A stretch of 38,967 nt of DNA, from contig JAQCEQ010000024.1 in assembly GCA_027618565.1 (NCBI GenBank), forward strand, positions 1 through 38,967, given 5' to 3'. The notes under the pieces are model-generated. The model had not been told where the DNA came from, made no database searches, and was given only the letters and a program-made list of their open reading frames with translations. The translations under genes were made by a program, and so were the position numbers. The stretch is from Planctomycetota bacterium (GTDB lineage: Bacteria > Planctomycetota > Phycisphaerae > Phycisphaerales > SM1A02). Shown here in pieces: positions 21,459-30,670 of the stretch (the first letter of the stretch is position 1; every line of letters begins with the position of its first letter).

Positions 21459-22013
21459 CTACCGACGACGGAGGGCAGGAAGCGGGAAGGTCCACCAGCC
21501 GATCCATCGCTCCAGTGGCCACCACAAGGGAATGGCCAGAACTCCGGAGGCGAGCGCATCCAAGATGCGCGTGGTCAAGTTACCCAACGCGGAGCCAGGC
21601 CACGGGAAATCCTCGCCTGGGTACCAGCCGCGCATCGCAAAGACGAAGGTCCACACGAGGGACGCCAGCAATCCAGTCAGGAAGGTGAGCAGCGCAAACG
21701 CGGCGGGACTGCGCCGGAACAGGATGCCCCGCAGCTGCACGCCTGTCCACGCCGCCAGCGCCAGGCCAAGTGCCCAGGGACCGGGGACGACCAGTGCCAT
21801 CCCCTCGACAGGGACGGGTCCGAGCAGGTCCACGGTCAGGCCGCACAGGAATCCTGCCCACATGGCCGTGGGGCGGGCCGCGTGCATCGCCACGAACGCC
21901 ACCAGCGCCGGCACGAGCGTGGGCACCACCCCACGAACCTCGAACACCGGCAAGAAGGAGCGATCGATCGCACCCACCAGCAACAGCGCGATGGCGAAGA
22001 TCGTCCAGTTCAT
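21459..22013 (-). CDS. mreD: Rod shape-determining protein MreD
   Basis: A 184-residue, very hydrophobic inner-membrane protein with five to six predicted helices (for example FAIALLLVGAIDRSFL, WALGLALAAWTGVQL, ALLTFLTGLLASLVWTFVF). It has low motif content, as usual for MreD; the call rests mainly on size, topology and position directly after mreC. Its ATG overlaps the mreC stop (ATGA at 22013-22010). It is a partner of MreBC in the elongasome. Confidence 0.85.
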   Translation of the reverse strand: MNWTIFAIALLLVGAIDRSFLPVFEVRGVVPTLVPALVAFVAMHAARPTAMWAGFLCGLTVDLLGPVPVEGMALVVPGPWALGLALAAWTGVQLRGILFRRSPAAFALLTFLTGLLASLVWTFVFAMRGWYPGEDFPWPGSALGNLTTRILDALASGVLAIPLWWPLERWIGWWTFPLPALRRR

Positions 22014-22849
22014 GGTGCCGTTCTCAGCCGAGAGAACTTGATCACGACGACATCCAGCCCCTTGGTCGGGGCTGCCGGGCGCAAGACATGCCTGCGCTGC
22101 AGTGGTGCTTCATCCGGAAGTTCGATCTTCACGACGGTCCCGATGAGCATGCCCTGCGCCTCGGCGGGCCACTCGCGGTCATCAAGGAGGATCTCCGTCC
22201 CGCGAGGCAGTTCAATCCCGGAGGGTGCCTGCGCCACGATCGAACCAGACGCCAGGACGCTCACCTGCACAGGCAGGTCGACTCCACCAACCGGATCCTT
22301 CGCGCGCGCATCAATGCGACCCACCCGAGGACTCCATACGGGCAACACGGAGCATCCGGCGCGCCCCACAGGCGACACGACCCTTCCGACGAGCGAGTCG
22401 CCTCCAAAGATGGCGACATCCCCCGCCTGGATGCCGGCCGAGGCTCCCTGCCCGATGCGAATCAGCGGATTGCGGCCAGCGCCGTCCACCCCCACCACGC
22501 TGGCCGGCACCAAAGCGGTGCGGTCGTCGCGCACGGCGAGCCGAGCCCGGGAGACGGAATCCAGTTCTCGTACCAGGCGTTCGGTCTCGATCCGCATCGA
22601 GTGGTAGAGGCCGCGGTAGGCATTGCGCTCGCGGATCAACTGTTGTGCGAGTGGAGACTGGAGGTCCAGTTCGGGAATCGGTGGCCGCAACCACGCCCTG
22701 GCCTGCCCCATCACAAGCCCAAGCGGCATGAAGGGGATCCAGGCAACCTCGCCAAGTTCGCCAGTCCATGGCTTGAGGAACCGGGCGGGAGCGAACGAAC
22801 AGGCCAGCGCCAGGGCGCCACACCAGACCATTGGTCCTGGCCTACGCAT
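22010..22849 (-). CDS. mreC: Rod shape-determining protein MreC
   Basis: The 279-residue protein has an N-terminal membrane anchor (MVWCGALALACSFAPARFL), a short helical coiled region (about 65-105: AQQLIRERNAYRGLYHSMRIETE), and a periplasmic beta-rich core with the family pattern VVGVDGAGRNPLIRIGQGASAGIQAGD, LVGRVV and IELPRGTEI (first stretch quoted in part). It should link MreB to the periplasmic wall-synthesis enzymes. It begins 8 nt after the mreB stop and ends in an ATGA overlap with mreD. Confidence 0.93.
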   Translation of the reverse strand: MRRPGPMVWCGALALACSFAPARFLKPWTGELGEVAWIPFMPLGLVMGQARAWLRPPIPELDLQSPLAQQLIRERNAYRGLYHSMRIETERLVRELDSVSRARLAVRDDRTALVPASVVGVDGAGRNPLIRIGQGASAGIQAGDVAIFGGDSLVGRVVSPVGRAGCSVLPVWSPRVGRIDARAKDPVGGVDLPVQVSVLASGSIVAQAPSGIELPRGTEILLDDREWPAEAQGMLIGTVVKIELPDEAPLQRRHVLRPAAPTKGLDVVVIKFSRLRTAP

Positions 22850-22857
22850 TCATCCGC

Positions 22858-23910
22858 TCAGCCCTCTTCGGCGTCGGACTCGAGTGTGGTACCCAGCAGG
22901 TCGAGGTTCTCGATGTACTCGGCCGTCCCGCGCGCGACGCAGGTGAGTGGATCGTCGGCAATCCGCACCGGCAGGCCGGTCTCCTGCTCCAGCAGCTTGT
23001 CGATCCCGCGCAGGAGTGCGCCGCCGCCGGCGAGCATGATGCCTGAATTGACCAGGTCCGCCGAAAGCTCGGGTTCCGCCAGTTCCAGCGTCCGCTTCGT
23101 GGCGGCGACGATGTCCGCCAGCGGTGCCTGCAGGGCCTCCCGGACTTCCGGGCTAGTGACCGTGCACTTGCGCGGCATGCCCGAAGGGACGTGCCGACCC
23201 CGCACCTCGAGTGCTAATTCCTTTTCCATCTTGAAGGCGCTGCCGATCTCGATCTTGATGCGCTCGGCGGTCTGCTCGCCGATCAGGATGTCGTGCTTCT
23301 CGCGCACGAACTTGATGATGGCCTCGTCAAAGTCGTCGCCAGCGCGTCTGATGGATTCGCACCGGGCGATGTCGCCCAGACTCAGGATCGCCACCTCGGT
23401 GGTGCCGCCGCCGATGTCGACGATCATTGACCCCTGAGCCTCGCGGTACGGAAGCCCAGCACCAATGGCGGCGGCCAAGGGTTCCTCCAGGAGGAACACG
23501 GTCCGGGCGCCCGCACGCTCGGCGCTGTCCAGCACCGCACGCTTCTCCACCGCCGTGATGCCCGATGGGATGCCGATCACGACGCGCGGCGCAAAGAACC
23601 GACGCTTACCGCAGACCTTGCGGATGAAGTACGAGAGCATCGCCTCCGTGATCTCGAAGTCCGAGATCACGCCGTCCTTGAGCGGGCGAATCGCGGAGAT
23701 CGAGCCAGGCGTCCTGCCCAACATGGCCTTCGCTGAGAGACCGACGGCCGTGCCATTGTTGAGCACCTTGTTGGTCCCTCGTCGCACGGCGACGACGGAG
23801 GGCTCGTTGAGGACGATGCCCTGCCCCCGGACGCACACGAGGGTGTTGCATGTCCCCAGGTCGATTCCCATGTCCGTGCCAAAGAGTCCTAGGAGCCTGT
23901 CGAAGAGCAT
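22858..23910 (-). CDS. mreB: Actin-like rod shape-determining protein MreB
   Basis: A 350-residue actin-fold ATPase. Phosphate-1 loop (DMGIDLGTCNTLV), phosphate-2 loop (MIVDIGGGTTEVAI) and adenosine loop (GIMLAGGGALLRGID) are all present, with ADDPLTCVARGTAEYIENL near the end. It guides lateral peptidoglycan synthesis. The strong Shine-Dalgarno GGAGG (plus 23916-23920) 5 nt before the ATG fixes the start. It is the first gene of the mreBCD set. The spacing of 108 nt to the preceding small gene is the widest in this minus-strand run, so a promoter may lie there. Confidence 0.97.
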   Translation of the reverse strand: MLFDRLLGLFGTDMGIDLGTCNTLVCVRGQGIVLNEPSVVAVRRGTNKVLNNGTAVGLSAKAMLGRTPGSISAIRPLKDGVISDFEITEAMLSYFIRKVCGKRRFFAPRVVIGIPSGITAVEKRAVLDSAERAGARTVFLLEEPLAAAIGAGLPYREAQGSMIVDIGGGTTEVAILSLGDIARCESIRRAGDDFDEAIIKFVREKHDILIGEQTAERIKIEIGSAFKMEKELALEVRGRHVPSGMPRKCTVTSPEVREALQAPLADIVAATKRTLELAEPELSADLVNSGIMLAGGGALLRGIDKLLEQETGLPVRIADDPLTCVARGTAEYIENLDLLGTTLESDAEEG

Positions 23911-24244: not shown

Positions 24245-25180
24245 TCAGTCGGGCTGCGCCAGCGCAGACTGCCCGTCCTCAACGCTGCCGCGAAGGGCGG
24301 ACTCGCCCTCCACAATCCCCACAGCGGAGTTGGTATCCACGCTGATGATCCGAAGGTCGGCGATGTAGTTGTTGCCGTCCGCGATCATCATGCGCCAACC
24401 GTTGGCGATGCCCGCCCGGCTCCCCTGGTCGATCTCCGCGTAGACCGTGTCACCATCGCGACGGACGGCGGTGATGCGCGCCTCCAGCTCGATGGTCGGC
24501 TGCACGCCAGCCGTCTCGGGGGCCGGCTGCGGTTCGGGGAGTTCCGCGCTGGAGCCTGAGGCACCAAGTGCCGCGGAACGCGCCATGGCGTCCGCAGCAA
24601 CCAGTTCGGCGGCGGCGACCCGGGCCGTGGCGGTGGCCTTGGCCTCGCGAAGTCGTTGCAGTTGTTCCTGGAGGGCCATCTGTGCGCTGCGCGCCGCATC
24701 GAAGTCGCTGGCGATTACCTCCAGCTGCTTCTGCACTTCCATCAACTGCCGCTCGGCCGCGACCGCCCGATCACGCATTTCGCCGAGATCATTGGCGAGT
24801 GACTCCACCAAGACACCCCTCGACCGATCACTCTCGGCGAGAACTGCAAAGGTCGCGTCTCGCTGCGCGGCCTGCGCCTTCAGGCGCTCGGCATCCTGCA
24901 TGGAGCGCATGAGATCCGCGCCCTTCGCTTCCAGGTCCGCGGCCAACTTGGCGCGAGCGGTATCGGCGGCCGCGAGCTGTGCCTGAAGGTCGCTCTCGGT
25001 CCGCGTCATCGATGCGCGCACGGCGCCCAGTTCGTCGTGCGCGGACTGGGCGGCTGACTTCTGCTCGATGTAGTTCGTCCGGTAGGTCGACTCATTGGAC
25101 GCCTGCACGATGACAAACGGGACGGTTGCCACAGCAAGCAAAGCGACCAGGACGACGAAAATCTTGGTGAGTATGTGCAC
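24245..25180 (-). CDS. Membrane-anchored coiled-coil protein, function unknown
   Basis: From the GTG at 25180 the protein has 311 residues: an N-terminal membrane helix (ILTKIFVVLVALLAVATVPFV), a long Ala/Glu/Arg-rich coiled coil (about 30-200), a Pro/Glu-rich linker, and a C-terminal beta-like domain (about 225-300: AEIDQGSRAGIANGWRMMI, IADLRIISVDTNSAVGIVEG). An in-frame ATG at 25231 would add 17 residues (MRRSLGRPSRPSPTRP) that look less protein-like, so the GTG is preferred but not certain. The layout suggests a periplasmic spacer protein in the envelope. It follows the lnt fusion gene by 76 nt and precedes the 59-residue membrane protein. Confidence 0.8.
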   Translation of the reverse strand: MHILTKIFVVLVALLAVATVPFVIVQASNESTYRTNYIEQKSAAQSAHDELGAVRASMTRTESDLQAQLAAADTARAKLAADLEAKGADLMRSMQDAERLKAQAAQRDATFAVLAESDRSRGVLVESLANDLGEMRDRAVAAERQLMEVQKQLEVIASDFDAARSAQMALQEQLQRLREAKATATARVAAAELVAADAMARSAALGASGSSAELPEPQPAPETAGVQPTIELEARITAVRRDGDTVYAEIDQGSRAGIANGWRMMIADGNNYIADLRIISVDTNSAVGIVEGESALRGSVEDGQSALAQPD

Positions 25181-25256
25181 GTGGGGTCTCGTGGGTGAGG
25201 GTCGAGACGGTCGACCCAATGAGCGACGCATTCTAGACCGGATAAACGGTCGGCTG

Positions 25257-28043
25257 TCAACTGCCCGTGGCGAGTCCCCTTGAGCCGGCAGGACCCCTCA
25301 GAATTGCCGCCGCTGCCGCGATCTGTACGGACGAGTCTTCGTCCGCCAGAAGCACGCTGAGCGCCGTTCGTGAGTCGGGCGTCCCTACCGCCCCCAGCAG
25401 GAACGCCGCCGACGCGCGAATGGTGGGAGAGGCGCTCTTGGCACCCTCCATGCCGAGGTACTCGGGACCAGCCAGCGGTCCGCCACCCAGACGGACAAAG
25501 GCCGTCGCGGCCACGATCCGGAGCTCCATCGGGCGCGTCTGCGGCCCGTCCGCGGACATGATGCGGTGGAGGTGAGGGAGCGCCGCGGAGTCCCGGATCT
25601 CTTCGACCAGTTGGCACGCGAGGCCGATTCGTTCAGCCTTTGATTCCGGCTGGAAGAGGGCGGCGCGGAGAGGGTCCAACTGCGTCTCGTCACCAAGCAC
25701 GACCATGGCTGCCGCCACCTGCAGCAAGAAGATCGCCTCTCGATCGGGGTTGGCACGAGCGCTGACGCGGACCACGGCAGTCCGGAGGAGAGGCAAGGCG
25801 CTGGGGTTGCCAAGCTTGCCAAGGAGCGTCGCAGCATTGGCTCGGTCGGTCTCGGACTCCCCCAGCAACATTGTTCCCAACGGCGTCAGGTCGACCGACT
25901 CTCCGCAGCGCGAGAGCGCGTAGAGCGCGCCGGCACGCACGCTGGGATACCGGTCAAACAGGAGCGGTCGAGTGAGTGGCGCCAGCTCGCACGCTCGTTG
26001 GTCCCCGATGACGATGCATGTGGCGTATCGGACGGCGGGGTTGACATCCCCGATGAGTCGCTCGCAGACGGCCGAGAGAGCACCCGAGGAGTATCGAAGA
26101 GACTCCACCGCCCTCGCCCTGAGCTCGGCATCAGGCGCGGCGGCGGCCTGCAACAGGAGGTCCGTGGCGTTCTGGGTATTGCCAAGGTCCGAGGTCACCG
26201 CAAAGGGCTGGCGCGTTGCCGCCGGAGCCAACCTGGCTGGGCCGCCCTGACTGGCCGCATCTGGATCGCTGATGCTGGCCGACTTGGTGCTCCACGGCCG
26301 ATCGGAGGCCGATGGCAGATTCGTGCCGCTGCTGCACCCGGAGATCGACGCCAGAAGCACGACGGACAGCACGGCCGATGCGCACGACCGCGTCGTGCGT
26401 CGCGAGGGGATGAATCCGAGAAGCAGCACCATCGCAGCGATGGGTGATAGTACGCCTCCGATGGAAGCGAAGGGCGGGTCCAACGACGCGAGCCGTACGG
26501 AGAGCCGGTGCGCGCCCTCCTCCGACGGAGCGGCCATCCACACGAGGCGGCCGGCCGCGTCCACCTGGCACGAAATCCCCGTGTTGGCGCATCGGACCAG
26601 CTCGGTCCGATTCTCGATCGCCCGAGCCCGCGCCATTTGGAGGTGGTGGCGCCGACCAGCGACTGAGCTCCCAAACCATCCGTCGTTGGAAAGGTTCACG
26701 ATGACCTGCGCCTTCCGGACGCCGCGATCCCAGACCAGGCTTCGGACCACCCAGGCCATGGTGTCCTCGAAGCAGATCGGCGTGGCGATTCGGAACGGGC
26801 TCGCGCCTGCTGGGCAAACCTCCAGCGAGTCCAGTCGCGCACCCGCCGACAGGTCGAAGGACATGCCACTCGCCCCAAGTGCCAGCAGTTGCTCCTCCAG
26901 CCATTTCCAGCGTGAGATCACTGGCATGGTTTCCCCGAACGGAGTCAGGAACACCTTGTCGTACCGCTGCAGGTTCCCCAGAGGGCCCACGATGTAGGCA
27001 CTGTTGAACGAGTCATCGAAGGCCCACCGATCGCCCTCGACACGAAGCATGGTGGTTGCGTGGCTCCCCACCAGGAGCGGCGCACCGACCTCGCTTGAGA
27101 GTTCTCGAATCGCGTCTCGAAACATGGAGCCGGGGTAGGAGCCGCCCGCGGAGAGCACCTGGACCGTCTCCTCTTCCAGCCCGAATCCCGGGAGCACCGT
27201 TTCGGGCCACACCACCAGCGCCGGAGGAGGCGCCTCCGATGCCCCGTCCCTGGTGAGTCCAACCCATCGCCGCACATCGATGACCTGGTCCCGAGGCTCC
27301 CACCGAAGCTTGTTGCTCGTGGGGAGGTCCGTCTGAACCACGAGGAGTTCCACCGCGCGGGAGGTCTCCTGGGCGCTGTCGACCTGGTGCATCCTCCAGG
27401 ATCCATAGCAGAGCGTGACCACGACGACGCACGCCACGACAACCAACCCTTCCCGCCGCCGTCGGGGAACGGCGATCGCGAAGATCGCCCCGCTCATGGC
27501 GGCGCACAGCAGCGTGAGCATCGGAACCCCGAAGAGGTCAGCAGACTGTGCCAGCACCGGTGCTTCGACCAGTGGCACGCCACGGGAGAACCACGGATAC
27601 CCGCCAAGCACAAGTTCGCCCCTGAGCCACTCGAAGGTGACCGCCACAAGCGAGAGCTGCACCCACGCTGGCCAGTTGGGCCGCCGTCGGGCGAGCGACC
27701 GCAGCGCGACGAGTTCGGCGGCTGACCAGAGTCCCATGTAACACGCCAGGACAGGCAGCCCCAGCACGCTGACATCCTGGATCCACCACTCCAAGGAGAG
27801 CCAGGCTGGAACGGTCGAAGCAAAGGCCAGCACCGCAAGGGTCCTCGTCCGCCAGCCTTGCACGGCCAGCCCCAGTCCGGCCAACGGCACCAGCGAGACG
27901 GGGGCAAGGAGCCACAGTCCCCAGGGCTCGAAGGGAAGTGCGATCGATCCGGCGAACGAGAGCAGCCAGAGCGCGACCGCCCAGCCGGGCGTTCTGGCCC
28001 GCGCCGGGTCCGTGCCCTGATCGGGTCCCTTGAGTGTCTTCAC
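25257..28043 (-). CDS. lnt: Apolipoprotein N-acyltransferase fused to a HEAT-like lipoprotein
   Basis: One continuous frame of 928 residues. Residues 15-545 form a complete Lnt: N-terminal membrane helices (about 15-225), a periplasmic nitrilase-type domain with the catalytic triad Glu281 (VVWPETV), Lys363 (YDKVFLTPFGE) and Cys424 (TPICFEDT), and a last helix (SPIAAMVLLLGFI). Lnt adds the third acyl chain to lipoproteins. The frame then continues through SRRTTR, a second hydrophobic stretch and the lipobox ISGC (Cys570), into a Ser-rich spacer and HEAT-like repeats (about 605-920: LRARAVESLRYSSG, VRAGALYALSRCG, DRANAATLLGKLG). Such a lipobox is the start of a separate lipoprotein. The GTG at 28043, 4 nt after the accD stop, is the likely start. 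Either the fusion is real or an error joined two genes. Confidence 0.88.
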   Translation of the reverse strand: MKTLKGPDQGTDPARARTPGWAVALWLLSFAGSIALPFEPWGLWLLAPVSLVPLAGLGLAVQGWRTRTLAVLAFASTVPAWLSLEWWIQDVSVLGLPVLACYMGLWSAAELVALRSLARRRPNWPAWVQLSLVAVTFEWLRGELVLGGYPWFSRGVPLVEAPVLAQSADLFGVPMLTLLCAAMSGAIFAIAVPRRRREGLVVVACVVVVTLCYGSWRMHQVDSAQETSRAVELLVVQTDLPTSNKLRWEPRDQVIDVRRWVGLTRDGASEAPPPALVVWPETVLPGFGLEEETVQVLSAGGSYPGSMFRDAIRELSSEVGAPLLVGSHATTMLRVEGDRWAFDDSFNSAYIVGPLGNLQRYDKVFLTPFGETMPVISRWKWLEEQLLALGASGMSFDLSAGARLDSLEVCPAGASPFRIATPICFEDTMAWVVRSLVWDRGVRKAQVIVNLSNDGWFGSSVAGRRHHLQMARARAIENRTELVRCANTGISCQVDAAGRLVWMAAPSEEGAHRLSVRLASLDPPFASIGGVLSPIAAMVLLLGFIPSRRTTRSCASAVLSVVLLASISGCSSGTNLPSASDRPWSTKSASISDPDAASQGGPARLAPAATRQPFAVTSDLGNTQNATDLLLQAAAAPDAELRARAVESLRYSSGALSAVCERLIGDVNPAVRYATCIVIGDQRACELAPLTRPLLFDRYPSVRAGALYALSRCGESVDLTPLGTMLLGESETDRANAATLLGKLGNPSALPLLRTAVVRVSARANPDREAIFLLQVAAAMVVLGDETQLDPLRAALFQPESKAERIGLACQLVEEIRDSAALPHLHRIMSADGPQTRPMELRIVAATAFVRLGGGPLAGPEYLGMEGAKSASPTIRASAAFLLGAVGTPDSRTALSVLLADEDSSVQIAAAAAILRGPAGSRGLATGS
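26334..26405 (-). other. Internal lipoprotein signal peptide and lipobox in the lnt fusion
   Basis: Residues 547-570: a basic n-region (SRRTTRS), a 14-residue hydrophobic core (ASAVLSVVLLASIS) and Cys570 in lipobox ISGC, followed by SSG, a typical +2 Ser. Possible in-frame internal starts are ATG at 26432 and GTGs at 26372 and 26360; none has a Shine-Dalgarno and the GTGs would remove the basic n-region. Confidence 0.75.
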
Positions 28044-28047
28044 GGAC

Positions 28048-28884
28048 TCACTTCCCCGCGTAGTCCACCAAGCGGGCGATCTCCGTCCGCAGGTTGGCAC
28101 GATGAACGATGCGATCCACGAAGCCGGACTTCAAGAGAAACTCAGAGGTCTGGAATCCATCTGGGAGGTCCTGGCGAATCGTCTGCTTGATGACACGCGG
28201 CCCGGCGAAGCCGACGAGCGCCCTTGGTTCGGCGATGATCACATCGCCCAACATGGCAAAACTGGCCGTCACGCCCCCAGTGGTGGGATCGGCCAGGACG
28301 GAGATGAAGAGCCCCCCGGCACGGTCAAACCGTGCCAGCGCAGCACTGGTCTTGGCCATCTGCATGAGCGAGAAGCCAGACTCCTGCATGCGGGCACCGC
28401 CGGAACAGCTCACGATGATCAGCGGGAGGTCGTGGTCGGTGGCGTGCTCGATGGCATGGGTGATCTTCTCGCCAACCACACTCCCCATCGACCCCGCCAT
28501 GAAGGTGAAGTCCATCGCCGCCAGCATGATCCGCCGGCCCTTGACATAGGCGGTGCCGGTCTGCACGCCATCGTTCTCACCAGTGCTCGCCTGAGCGTCC
28601 GCAATGCGCTGCAAGTAGGGCTTGGTGTCCGTGAATACCAGAGGGTCCATCGGCGCCATGTGCGCGTTGATCGGCTCGAAGGTGCCGGTGTCCACCAGTT
28701 GCTCCACGCGCAACCTCCCCGAGATGCGGTGGTGGTGGTCGCACTTGGGGCACACCATGAGATTGACTTCAAGGGCGCGCCGAAACACGGTCTCCGAGCA
28801 GGCAGGGCACTGCACCCATTGCCCCTCCTTGACCGCACGCTTGTCGGTGATTGGCTCGTCCAGATCCCAGGTGATGGCACTCAT
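28048..28884 (-). CDS. accD: Acetyl-CoA carboxylase carboxyltransferase beta subunit
   Basis: The 278-residue protein has the N-terminal four-Cys zinc finger (CPACSE...CPKCDHH, about 26-50) that marks bacterial AccD, then the crotonase-like carboxyltransferase core with MDFTFMAGSMGSVVGEK, SCSGGARMQE, ADPTTGGVTASFAMLGDV and GFAGPRVI. With AccA, not in the window, it moves the carboxyl group from biotin to acetyl-CoA, the first committed step of fatty-acid synthesis. The ATG at 28884 overlaps the rpe stop (ATGA), and lnt starts 4 nt after its stop, so the three are translationally linked. Confidence 0.96.
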   Translation of the reverse strand: MSAITWDLDEPITDKRAVKEGQWVQCPACSETVFRRALEVNLMVCPKCDHHHRISGRLRVEQLVDTGTFEPINAHMAPMDPLVFTDTKPYLQRIADAQASTGENDGVQTGTAYVKGRRIMLAAMDFTFMAGSMGSVVGEKITHAIEHATDHDLPLIIVSCSGGARMQESGFSLMQMAKTSAALARFDRAGGLFISVLADPTTGGVTASFAMLGDVIIAEPRALVGFAGPRVIKQTIRQDLPDGFQTSEFLLKSGFVDRIVHRANLRTEIARLVDYAGK

Positions 28885-29603
28885 GAACTGACCGCCTCCC
28901 GAGCGGTGCGACGGTGCGAGCGGCGGTCGCCTCCGCGCATCGCAGCAATGACGGCGGATCGATCCTTCGCCCCAAAGATGGCCGTGGCACTGACCAGCGT
29001 GTCAAACCCGGCCTCCCGACAGGCCGATGCGTTCGCTGCGTTCACCCCTCCGTCAACCTGGAGCCGCTGATGATCCCCGAGCAGGCGACGCAATGCCCTT
29101 CCCTTTCGCAGCGCGATCGGCATGAACGCCTGGCCGGAGTAACCGGGATGGATGCTCATGACAAGGACCATGTCGCACTCGTCCAGCATCGGGCGGATGC
29201 GTGCAACCGCCGTGCGTGGGCTGATCGCGATGGCAGGTCGGCAACCAAGGGCACGAATCTGCCGGAGGAGGCGCCTGTGATTGCCTCGTGCCTCGGCGTG
29301 GATCGTGAGACCATCGGCACCCGCAGCCGCGAAGGGTTCCAGGAATCGCTCGGGCTCTTCCACCATGAGGTGGACATCAAGGGCCACCGTGGGGAACGAC
29401 TTCCGCAACGCACCGCACACCGCTGGCCCCATGCTCAGGTTGGGAACCAAGTGGCCGTCCATGACATCGACATGGATGAAGTCGGCGCCGGATCGAAGGG
29501 CGTCGCGCGTGTCTGACGCGAGTCGGGAGAAGTCAGCAGAAAGCACCGATGCCCCGACGATCGTCCGACCATGCGTCTGGAGGATGTGTGGGTCCGCCCT
29601 CAC
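28881..29603 (-). CDS. rpe: Ribulose-phosphate 3-epimerase
   Basis: A 240-residue TIM barrel with the metal and catalytic motifs of Rpe: GASVLSADFSRL, FIHVDVMDGHLVPN, DVHLMVEEP, LVMSIHPGYSGQAF and QVDGGVN. It interconverts ribulose 5-phosphate and xylulose 5-phosphate. The usual VNPGFGGQ loop reads IHPGYSGQ here, a variant but with Pro, Gly and Gln kept. The C-terminus carries a short basic tail (RGGDRRSHRRTAREA). The start is a GTG at 29603 overlapping the stop of the TlpA-like gene (GTGA), and the end overlaps accD (ATGA). Confidence 0.95.
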   Translation of the reverse strand: MRADPHILQTHGRTIVGASVLSADFSRLASDTRDALRSGADFIHVDVMDGHLVPNLSMGPAVCGALRKSFPTVALDVHLMVEEPERFLEPFAAAGADGLTIHAEARGNHRRLLRQIRALGCRPAIAISPRTAVARIRPMLDECDMVLVMSIHPGYSGQAFMPIALRKGRALRRLLGDHQRLQVDGGVNAANASACREAGFDTLVSATAIFGAKDRSAVIAAMRGGDRRSHRRTAREAVSS

Positions 29604-30670
29604 TCCCGACCGGCGACCCCCTCGCGCGCTGCCTGGTACCCGTCAAGGTCGGCCTTGAAGACCGACTTGGCATCGGGCAGCGCCACTTTGTAGGCCTTGC
29701 GCTGCGCGAAGTAGGCACCGCTGAGATCGCCGTGGAGAAACCTCACGCGAGCCTGTGCGGCGAGGGCACCAGCATCGGTGCCGCCCGAGACTTCGACCGC
29801 CTTCTCCGCCAGCGCCTGCGCCGCGTCAAGGTCGTGATCTGAAAGCCGCGGAGAGGTCGCCACGAAGACGGCCATCTCGGCCAGTTCGTCGGGTCCATCG
29901 CCGTAGGTGTCCAGGCACTGCGCGGCCCAAGCCTTGGCGGCCTCGGCGTCATGCTTCTGAGTGGCCAGCATCAGGTACTTCTCGGTCGCCGCATTGAACA
30001 TCACGCGCGGGTCCAGCTCCAGTGCCGCGTCGTAGTGAAGGATCGCCTGATTGAAGTTGCCTACCTTGGCCGCGCTCCGGGCGGCATCGATGAGCGGCTC
30101 GCCCTTGGGCGTGATGTCCGGGTCGTATCGACCCGAGAGGGCCAACTGCACGATGTCGTCGAACTTCTTGTCGTGCGGATTGCCGATCCAGAGGATCTTC
30201 TTGTTGGAAACGACAAAGGTGCACGGGATGCCCTTCTGGCCCGCCGCCTCCATCCATCGCCTCGCCGTCTCGCCACCCTTGTCCCAGGCGACCAAGTACC
30301 CCATGGCGTCGCCCTTCGCCTTGACGAAGGGATCGACCGGATCCCGCTCCTTGTCGGTGGAGATGCCGAGCACCGACAGGCCGCGCCAGTGGTTCTCCTT
30401 GTCCATCGTGTTGAGATGCGGGATGGCTCGCTTGCACGGGCCGCACCAGGTGGCCCAGAACTCCACCACGAGGACCTTGGAATTGAAGAGGTCGTCAAAG
30501 CCTTCTTCCGGCCCGGACACCACCTCCAAGTCCTTGAAGGAAGGCGCATCCGAGCCAGGCTTCAGCTTCTTGTCGTCCTGCATCGGTGCCGCGGTGGCCG
30601 ATGGGATCGAAACGACGGCTGGAAGCAGGAGGACGGTTGAGAGGACGATGATGGGAAGCGATCTGATCAT
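29600..30670 (-). CDS. Exported TlpA-like thioredoxin with C-terminal TPR-like region
   Basis: The 356-residue protein has a signal peptide (MIRSLPIIVLSTVLLLPAVV, cleavage near ATAAPM). A redoxin domain follows, with FWATWCGPCKRAIPHL (active Cys76 and Cys79), TDKERDPVDPFV and GIPCTFVV with the cis-Pro position. A helical C-terminal part (about 210-356) has TPR-like spacing (NFNQAILHYDAALELDP). It is probably a periplasmic disulfide reductase or membrane-tethered redox protein; the partner is unknown. It starts 19 nt after the pgk stop. On the minus strand GGAG precedes the ATG by about 10 nt, and TATAGT overlapping the pgk stop could be a -10 site. Confidence 0.9.
   Translation of the reverse strand: MIRSLPIIVLSTVLLLPAVVSIPSATAAPMQDDKKLKPGSDAPSFKDLEVVSGPEEGFDDLFNSKVLVVEFWATWCGPCKRAIPHLNTMDKENHWRGLSVLGISTDKERDPVDPFVKAKGDAMGYLVAWDKGGETARRWMEAAGQKGIPCTFVVSNKKILWIGNPHDKKFDDIVQLALSGRYDPDITPKGEPLIDAARSAAKVGNFNQAILHYDAALELDPRVMFNAATEKYLMLATQKHDAEAAKAWAAQCLDTYGDGPDELAEMAVFVATSPRLSDHDLDAAQALAEKAVEVSGGTDAGALAAQARVRFLHGDLSGAYFAQRKAYKVALPDAKSVFKADLDGYQAAREGVAGRE

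Follow-up and report, generated by a model that had tools for sequence, protein, structure and literature searches.

Here we show that a 38,967-nucleotide stretch of DNA from a planctomycete of the order Phycisphaerales (hereafter the window) carries an apolipoprotein N-acyltransferase (Lnt) that continues, in one open reading frame, through an internal lipobox into a HEAT-repeat domain, and that this arrangement, recurring in 42 genomes of nine genera, is far beyond chance. We consider it probable that this is a derived and selectively maintained fusion of ancestrally adjacent lnt and HEAT lipoprotein genes, producing one polyprotein whose internal signal receives its lipid from Lgt and is cleaved by LspA. 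It also seems likely, if with somewhat less assurance, that the N-terminal half acts on the C-terminal half once the latter is freed, in which case enzyme and substrate would be made one-to-one and set apart by the step that comes just before in the pathway. For this protein we infer the topology of the signal, its lipidation and cleavage, and the final acylation. Lipoprotein signals are treated as N-terminal, both in biology and in prediction programs; here the signal occupies residues 548-569 of 928, behind a full Lnt.

Domain organisation of the fused open reading frame

The frame at 28043..25257 on the minus strand is uninterrupted over 928 codons, from a GTG start to a TGA stop with 0 internal stops, and no better reading of the junction was found in the other two frames. 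Its parts are as follows.

25257..28043, minus strand: lnt-HEAT lipoprotein fusion, one open reading frame, 928 aa
26397..28043, minus strand: complete Lnt, residues 1-549, with 8 transmembrane helices and a nitrilase domain (TIGR00546; AlphaFold model)
27201..27203, minus strand: catalytic Glu281 (invariant in 30 fused proteins)
26955..26957, minus strand: catalytic Lys363 (invariant in fused relatives)
26772..26774, minus strand: catalytic Cys424 (aligned with PICFE/AICYE; invariant in fused relatives)
26400..26474, minus strand: last Lnt transmembrane helix (TM8), about residues 524-548 (model helices 524-528 and 532-543; matched in the alignment by the C terminus of E. coli Lnt)
26388..26402, minus strand: linker RRTTR (548-552) joining TM8 to the lipoprotein signal, basic and predicted to be cytoplasmic (42/42 fused proteins have a linker net charge of +1 to +5)
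26337..26387, minus strand: putative internal type-II signal, h-region plus lipobox SCASAVLSVVLLASISG (553-569) (sequence; model helix 551-568)
26334..26336, minus strand: lipobox Cys570, where the lipid is expected to be attached and which would be the first residue of the mature lipoprotein (invariant column in 30 fused proteins)
26181..26333, minus strand: flexible spacer with a W[ST][ST][KR] motif (571-621) (pLDDT <50 over most of its length)
25296..26180, minus strand: HEAT-repeat superhelix (622-916), the lipoprotein half (HEAT_2 E 2.5e-20; pLDDT mostly >85)

Pfam matches cover LNT_N (34-185), CN_hydrolase (273-510) and HEAT_2 (658-730), and the score of 225.9 bits against the NCBIfam equivalog model TIGR00546 (lnt) lies well above its cut-off of 132.9. 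In an alignment with E. coli Lnt (5n6h), E281, K363 and C424 fall on WPES, RYNK and ICYE, respectively. The lipobox reads LASISG before C570 and conforms to the pattern [LVI][ASTVI][GAS]C after an h-region, with RRTTR as the basic n-region.

The AlphaFold model of the whole fusion (mean pLDDT 85.5, pTM 0.65) comprises a complete Lnt, a low-confidence helix at 551-568 (pLDDT about 50-60), a disordered spacer and, from residue 622 onwards, a HEAT superhelix that is well formed. Model residues 12-549 superpose on residues 1-510 of E. coli Lnt (8b0k/8b0n, Z about 34.5), so the lipoprotein signal starts only a few residues past the natural end of Lnt; the 8b0k alignment (Z 34.8, 470 residues, 3.4 Å) shows the expected eight-helix and nitrilase fold. 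An earlier reading made from the sequence alone had described a complete Lnt with the triad Glu281/Lys363/Cys424 and a final membrane helix, and on this the TIGR00546 match, the E. coli Lnt alignment and the model agree. The same reading placed a basic stretch, a second hydrophobic segment and a perfect lipobox at Cys570, correctly to the residue, and its HEAT-like repeats are borne out by the HEAT_2 match and the modelled superhelix. The C-terminal half also matches NblB and PBS-lyase HEAT families, far below cut-off; we regard this as generic repeat similarity and assign no function from it.

Genomic setting and maturation enzymes of the host

From the thioredoxin/TPR gene through the mreD position, all genes around the fusion lie on the same strand.

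29603-30670, minus strand: thioredoxin/TPR protein
28884-29603, minus strand: rpe
28051-28884, minus strand: accD
24248-25231, minus strand: coiled-coil-like protein of 328 aa with a hydrophobic segment at its N terminus; immediately follows the fusion and precedes mreB
22861-23910, minus strand: mreB
22013-22849, minus strand: mreC
mreD position, minus strand: small hydrophobic protein

A Pfam search with the 328-aa coiled-coil-like protein gave no match. When the fusion was used as a query against its own genome (E <= 0.001), the sole match was the fusion itself, which therefore appears to be the cell's Lnt. One copy each of Lgt (TIGR00544, 154.4 bits) and LspA (PF01252, 102 bits) is present in the host genome, both above cut-off.

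Fused and separate genes in related genomes

The junction was read in 141 loci, drawn from the window's family and from five further families of its order. Within the window's family, nine genera (g1, g2, g15, g17, g25, g29, g56, g59 and g60) are fused in every member that could be read, 42 in all, comprising, besides the window, loci L002-L007, L064, L066-L090, L104-L107, L114, L116, L118, L119 and L128. Separate genes, with a stop ending lnt, occur at 75 loci in the family's other genera and at 24 loci in the five other families; lnt and the HEAT gene are adjacent in nearly all relatives of the order. In the fused genomes, one gene encodes what relatives have as two separate proteins, a trait of fbcH-like polyproteins cut by a signal peptidase. 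The sequence-only reading had held that close relatives with two separate genes would speak against the fusion. The window's two congeners are fused, as are the sister genera g2, g17, g59 and g60; two genes are found only in other genera and families, so that the fusion is derived rather than spurious.

Contigs named in GTDB, which come from many projects unrelated to one another, give a similar picture: of 78 decided loci, 49 are fused and 29 separate. They were found with an alignment query, bear titles such as Phycisphaerales or Planctomycetota bacterium, and overlap partly with the 141-locus genomes. In a wider sample of the class, family f9 likewise has adjacent lnt and HEAT genes with a stop between them, and no fusion outside the window's family was seen among the matches listed for that sample, where rows spanning both genes carry a stop. 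Lnt frames in a sample of the phylum are mostly 500-700 aa long, with a few longer.

The unfused pairs encode the same proteins in the same order and share the lipobox and, after its cysteine, the W[ST][ST][KR] motif; unlike the fusion, they consist of two genes with their own stop and start. An ATGA overlap joins the two genes in 31 of the 79 separate pairs in which the start could be placed, and all three kinds of relative frame occur between lnt and the lipoprotein gene. At loci of g62 (L091, L093, L101) and g34 (L100), both genes are in the same frame and only in-frame stops split them, a state near to fusion. In families f5 and f6 (L048, L050, L051, L053-L058), the HEAT partner beside lnt mostly lacks a lipobox and seemingly carries a signal of the Sec/SPase-I type.

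Selection across the junction

In an alignment of 30 fused proteins made regardless of C570, this cysteine is the sole invariant column between G529 and A626. A cysteine preceded by G (34), A (7) or S (1) was found in all 42 fused proteins, in a scan that searched for such a cysteine and is hence biased towards finding one. The distance from the conserved NTG motif to the cysteine varies from 79 to 105 residues across the fused proteins, with the frame kept in all. For the linker and signal together, dN/dS is 0.23 in g17, 0.37 in g25 and 0.39 in g56 (g59 is saturated), and gaps are of whole codons. Judged from these sequence comparisons, the junction is under apparent purifying selection and the fusion is probably maintained by selection.

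Both termini of Lnt are cytoplasmic (PMC8048626), and the net positive linker of every fused protein is what would be expected of a cytoplasmic loop following a C-in Lnt. The earlier proposal of a topology consistent with a polyprotein holds up in this respect, and it fits alongside the conservation of the lipobox and the presence of Lgt and LspA.

It is conceivable, though we think it improbable, that the protein stays whole, with a periplasmic HEAT domain tethered to Lnt by a ninth transmembrane helix and Cys570 perhaps lipidated but uncut. Both domains fold well within one chain in the model, and the neighbouring position of the two genes in nearly all relatives makes a physical partnership plausible. 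Several fused members also have off-consensus lipoboxes (LPLAC, ALLWGC, LFPGC and LQPGC). Against this, an invariant cysteine after G, A or S in an otherwise variable segment is a need of LspA and not of a plain transmembrane anchor, and in relatives with separate genes the equivalent sequence is an ordinary lipoprotein signal.

Start signals and number of translation products

A further reading, to which we give a similarly low probability, is that the lipoprotein is translated, exclusively or additionally, from an ATG or GTG close to where the last Lnt helix ends, the read-through fusion being a by-product. Of the 42 genomes, 31 have such an in-frame codon towards the end of TM8, and in two genera it is conserved. 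All seven members of g17 (L005, L067-L069, L073, L079, L128) have a GTG or ATG 19 residues before the lipobox cysteine, from which a good free-standing lipoprotein signal would be obtained, making an extra internal start possible; in g56, a conserved ATG at -26 to -30 from the cysteine could start a separate lipoprotein.

However, 10 of the 42 fused frames, the window included, have no ATG, GTG or TTG between mid-TM8 and the h-region. A Shine-Dalgarno-like motif precedes the ATG of 48 of 79 separate lipoprotein genes (61%), as against 7 of 133 candidate internal starts in the fused frames (5 of 42 genomes), which is at background (chance 6.3%; Fisher p 1.2e-7). Under internal initiation the linker should moreover tolerate stops and changes of frame, and there are 0 in 42. 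Together, the conservation of the junction and the start-signal data argue for a single translation product, with weak internal starts conceivable in g17 and g56.

At the ATG starts of lnt itself, Shine-Dalgarno motifs are rare (3 of 91), compared with those of the downstream lipoprotein gene. Translation of lnt may be coupled to that of the preceding gene, or the choice of start may be off.

Origin of the fusion

A tree was built from 79 Lnt and HEAT pairs with the junction excluded. The fused or separate label needs three changes on this tree, and the fusion is derived, since the outgroup families are all separate. A single origin for all fusions was rejected (AU p 4.8e-6), a result driven by one g29 MAG, G030 (locus L006), which groups with the unfused genus g61; the other 23 fused representatives placed as one clade were not rejected (AU p 0.515). 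The fusion thus arose at least once and probably twice: the main group goes back to one origin or to more than one, and g29, represented by a single MAG, may be a separate case.

An assembly or sequencing artefact, through an indel or a lost stop, is refuted for the window's group and overall has next to no probability, even though all genomes are MAGs, judging by their titles, and g29 contributes a single fused MAG whose sister genus g61 is unfused: the junction is open, with differing sequences and lengths, in nine genera from many independent projects with 0 stops or frame errors, and purifying selection acts across it. The frameshift or missing stop that the sequence-only reading had feared is thus excluded in the window's group: eight further genera are fused in every member that could be read, as are 49 of the 78 GTDB loci; conservation in dozens of genomes means that it is not a sequencing error.

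Predicted maturation and comparison with known systems

Under the polyprotein reading, the ribosome would make Lnt first, with its N terminus inside, eight transmembrane helices and its C terminus inside. The basic loop would remain inside and the following hydrophobic stretch would re-enter the membrane as an internal type-II signal, giving nine helices and thereby placing Cys570 and the HEAT domain outside. Cys570 would then receive diacylglycerol from Lgt, and a cut by LspA before this residue would yield two products, an Lnt of about 62 kDa that keeps a ninth helix at its C terminus and a diacylated HEAT lipoprotein of about 37 kDa. After release, the new alpha-amino group of Cys570 could be N-acylated by any Lnt molecule. 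Lgt is known to work on the membrane-embedded signal, LspA to cut below the diacylated cysteine, and Lnt to need the amino group so freed (PMC8048626). Lnt would be unable to acylate its attached partner before the action of LspA, because that alpha-amino group would not yet exist.

An internal lipobox invariant across many genera would imply that Lgt and LspA can act while the signal is still attached to a protein of eight helices. That the HEAT lipoprotein has stayed paired with lnt suggests that it may have a role around lipoprotein maturation or trafficking, and the order-wide extent of this pairing, ending in fusion, points to an unrecognised Lnt partner or a dedicated client in these uncultured planctomycetes.

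In the cytochrome b/c1 polyprotein of Bradyrhizobium, encoded by fbcH, a polytopic membrane protein runs on through an internal signal peptide into an exported domain, and signal peptidase I separates the two products. This is the nearest precedent in logic, since the lnt-HEAT fusion also combines, in one gene, a polytopic protein, an internal signal and an exported domain. The signal of fbcH is of type I and is handled by signal peptidase I, whereas the fusion has a type-II lipobox that would need Lgt and LspA for its presumed cleavage; unlike in fbcH, the part lying upstream is itself an enzyme of that pathway.

Lnt itself occurs in another natural C-terminal fusion, the two-domain Lnt-Ppm1 protein of slow-growing mycobacteria (Rv2051c/BCG_2070c), the two parts of which are separate neighbouring genes in M. 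smegmatis (PMC3850990). The mycobacterial Lnt is joined to a polyprenol-monophosphomannose synthase domain, the planctomycete one to a lipoprotein whose lipobox is internal and which is hence a potential Lnt substrate. Bacterial polyproteins processed by signal peptidase and fusions of Lnt are thus already known kinds; among the papers searched, none describes a conserved lipobox that lies inside a protein and comes after Lnt. The region around the last helix and lipobox (residues 523-578) bears a weak similarity to a putative C-terminal anchoring domain, lipo-invert (NCBIfam NF058595), at 14.6 bits against a cut-off of 37 and hence outside that family, with 5 of the 30 fused proteins matching at E<1 (best E 0.0021).
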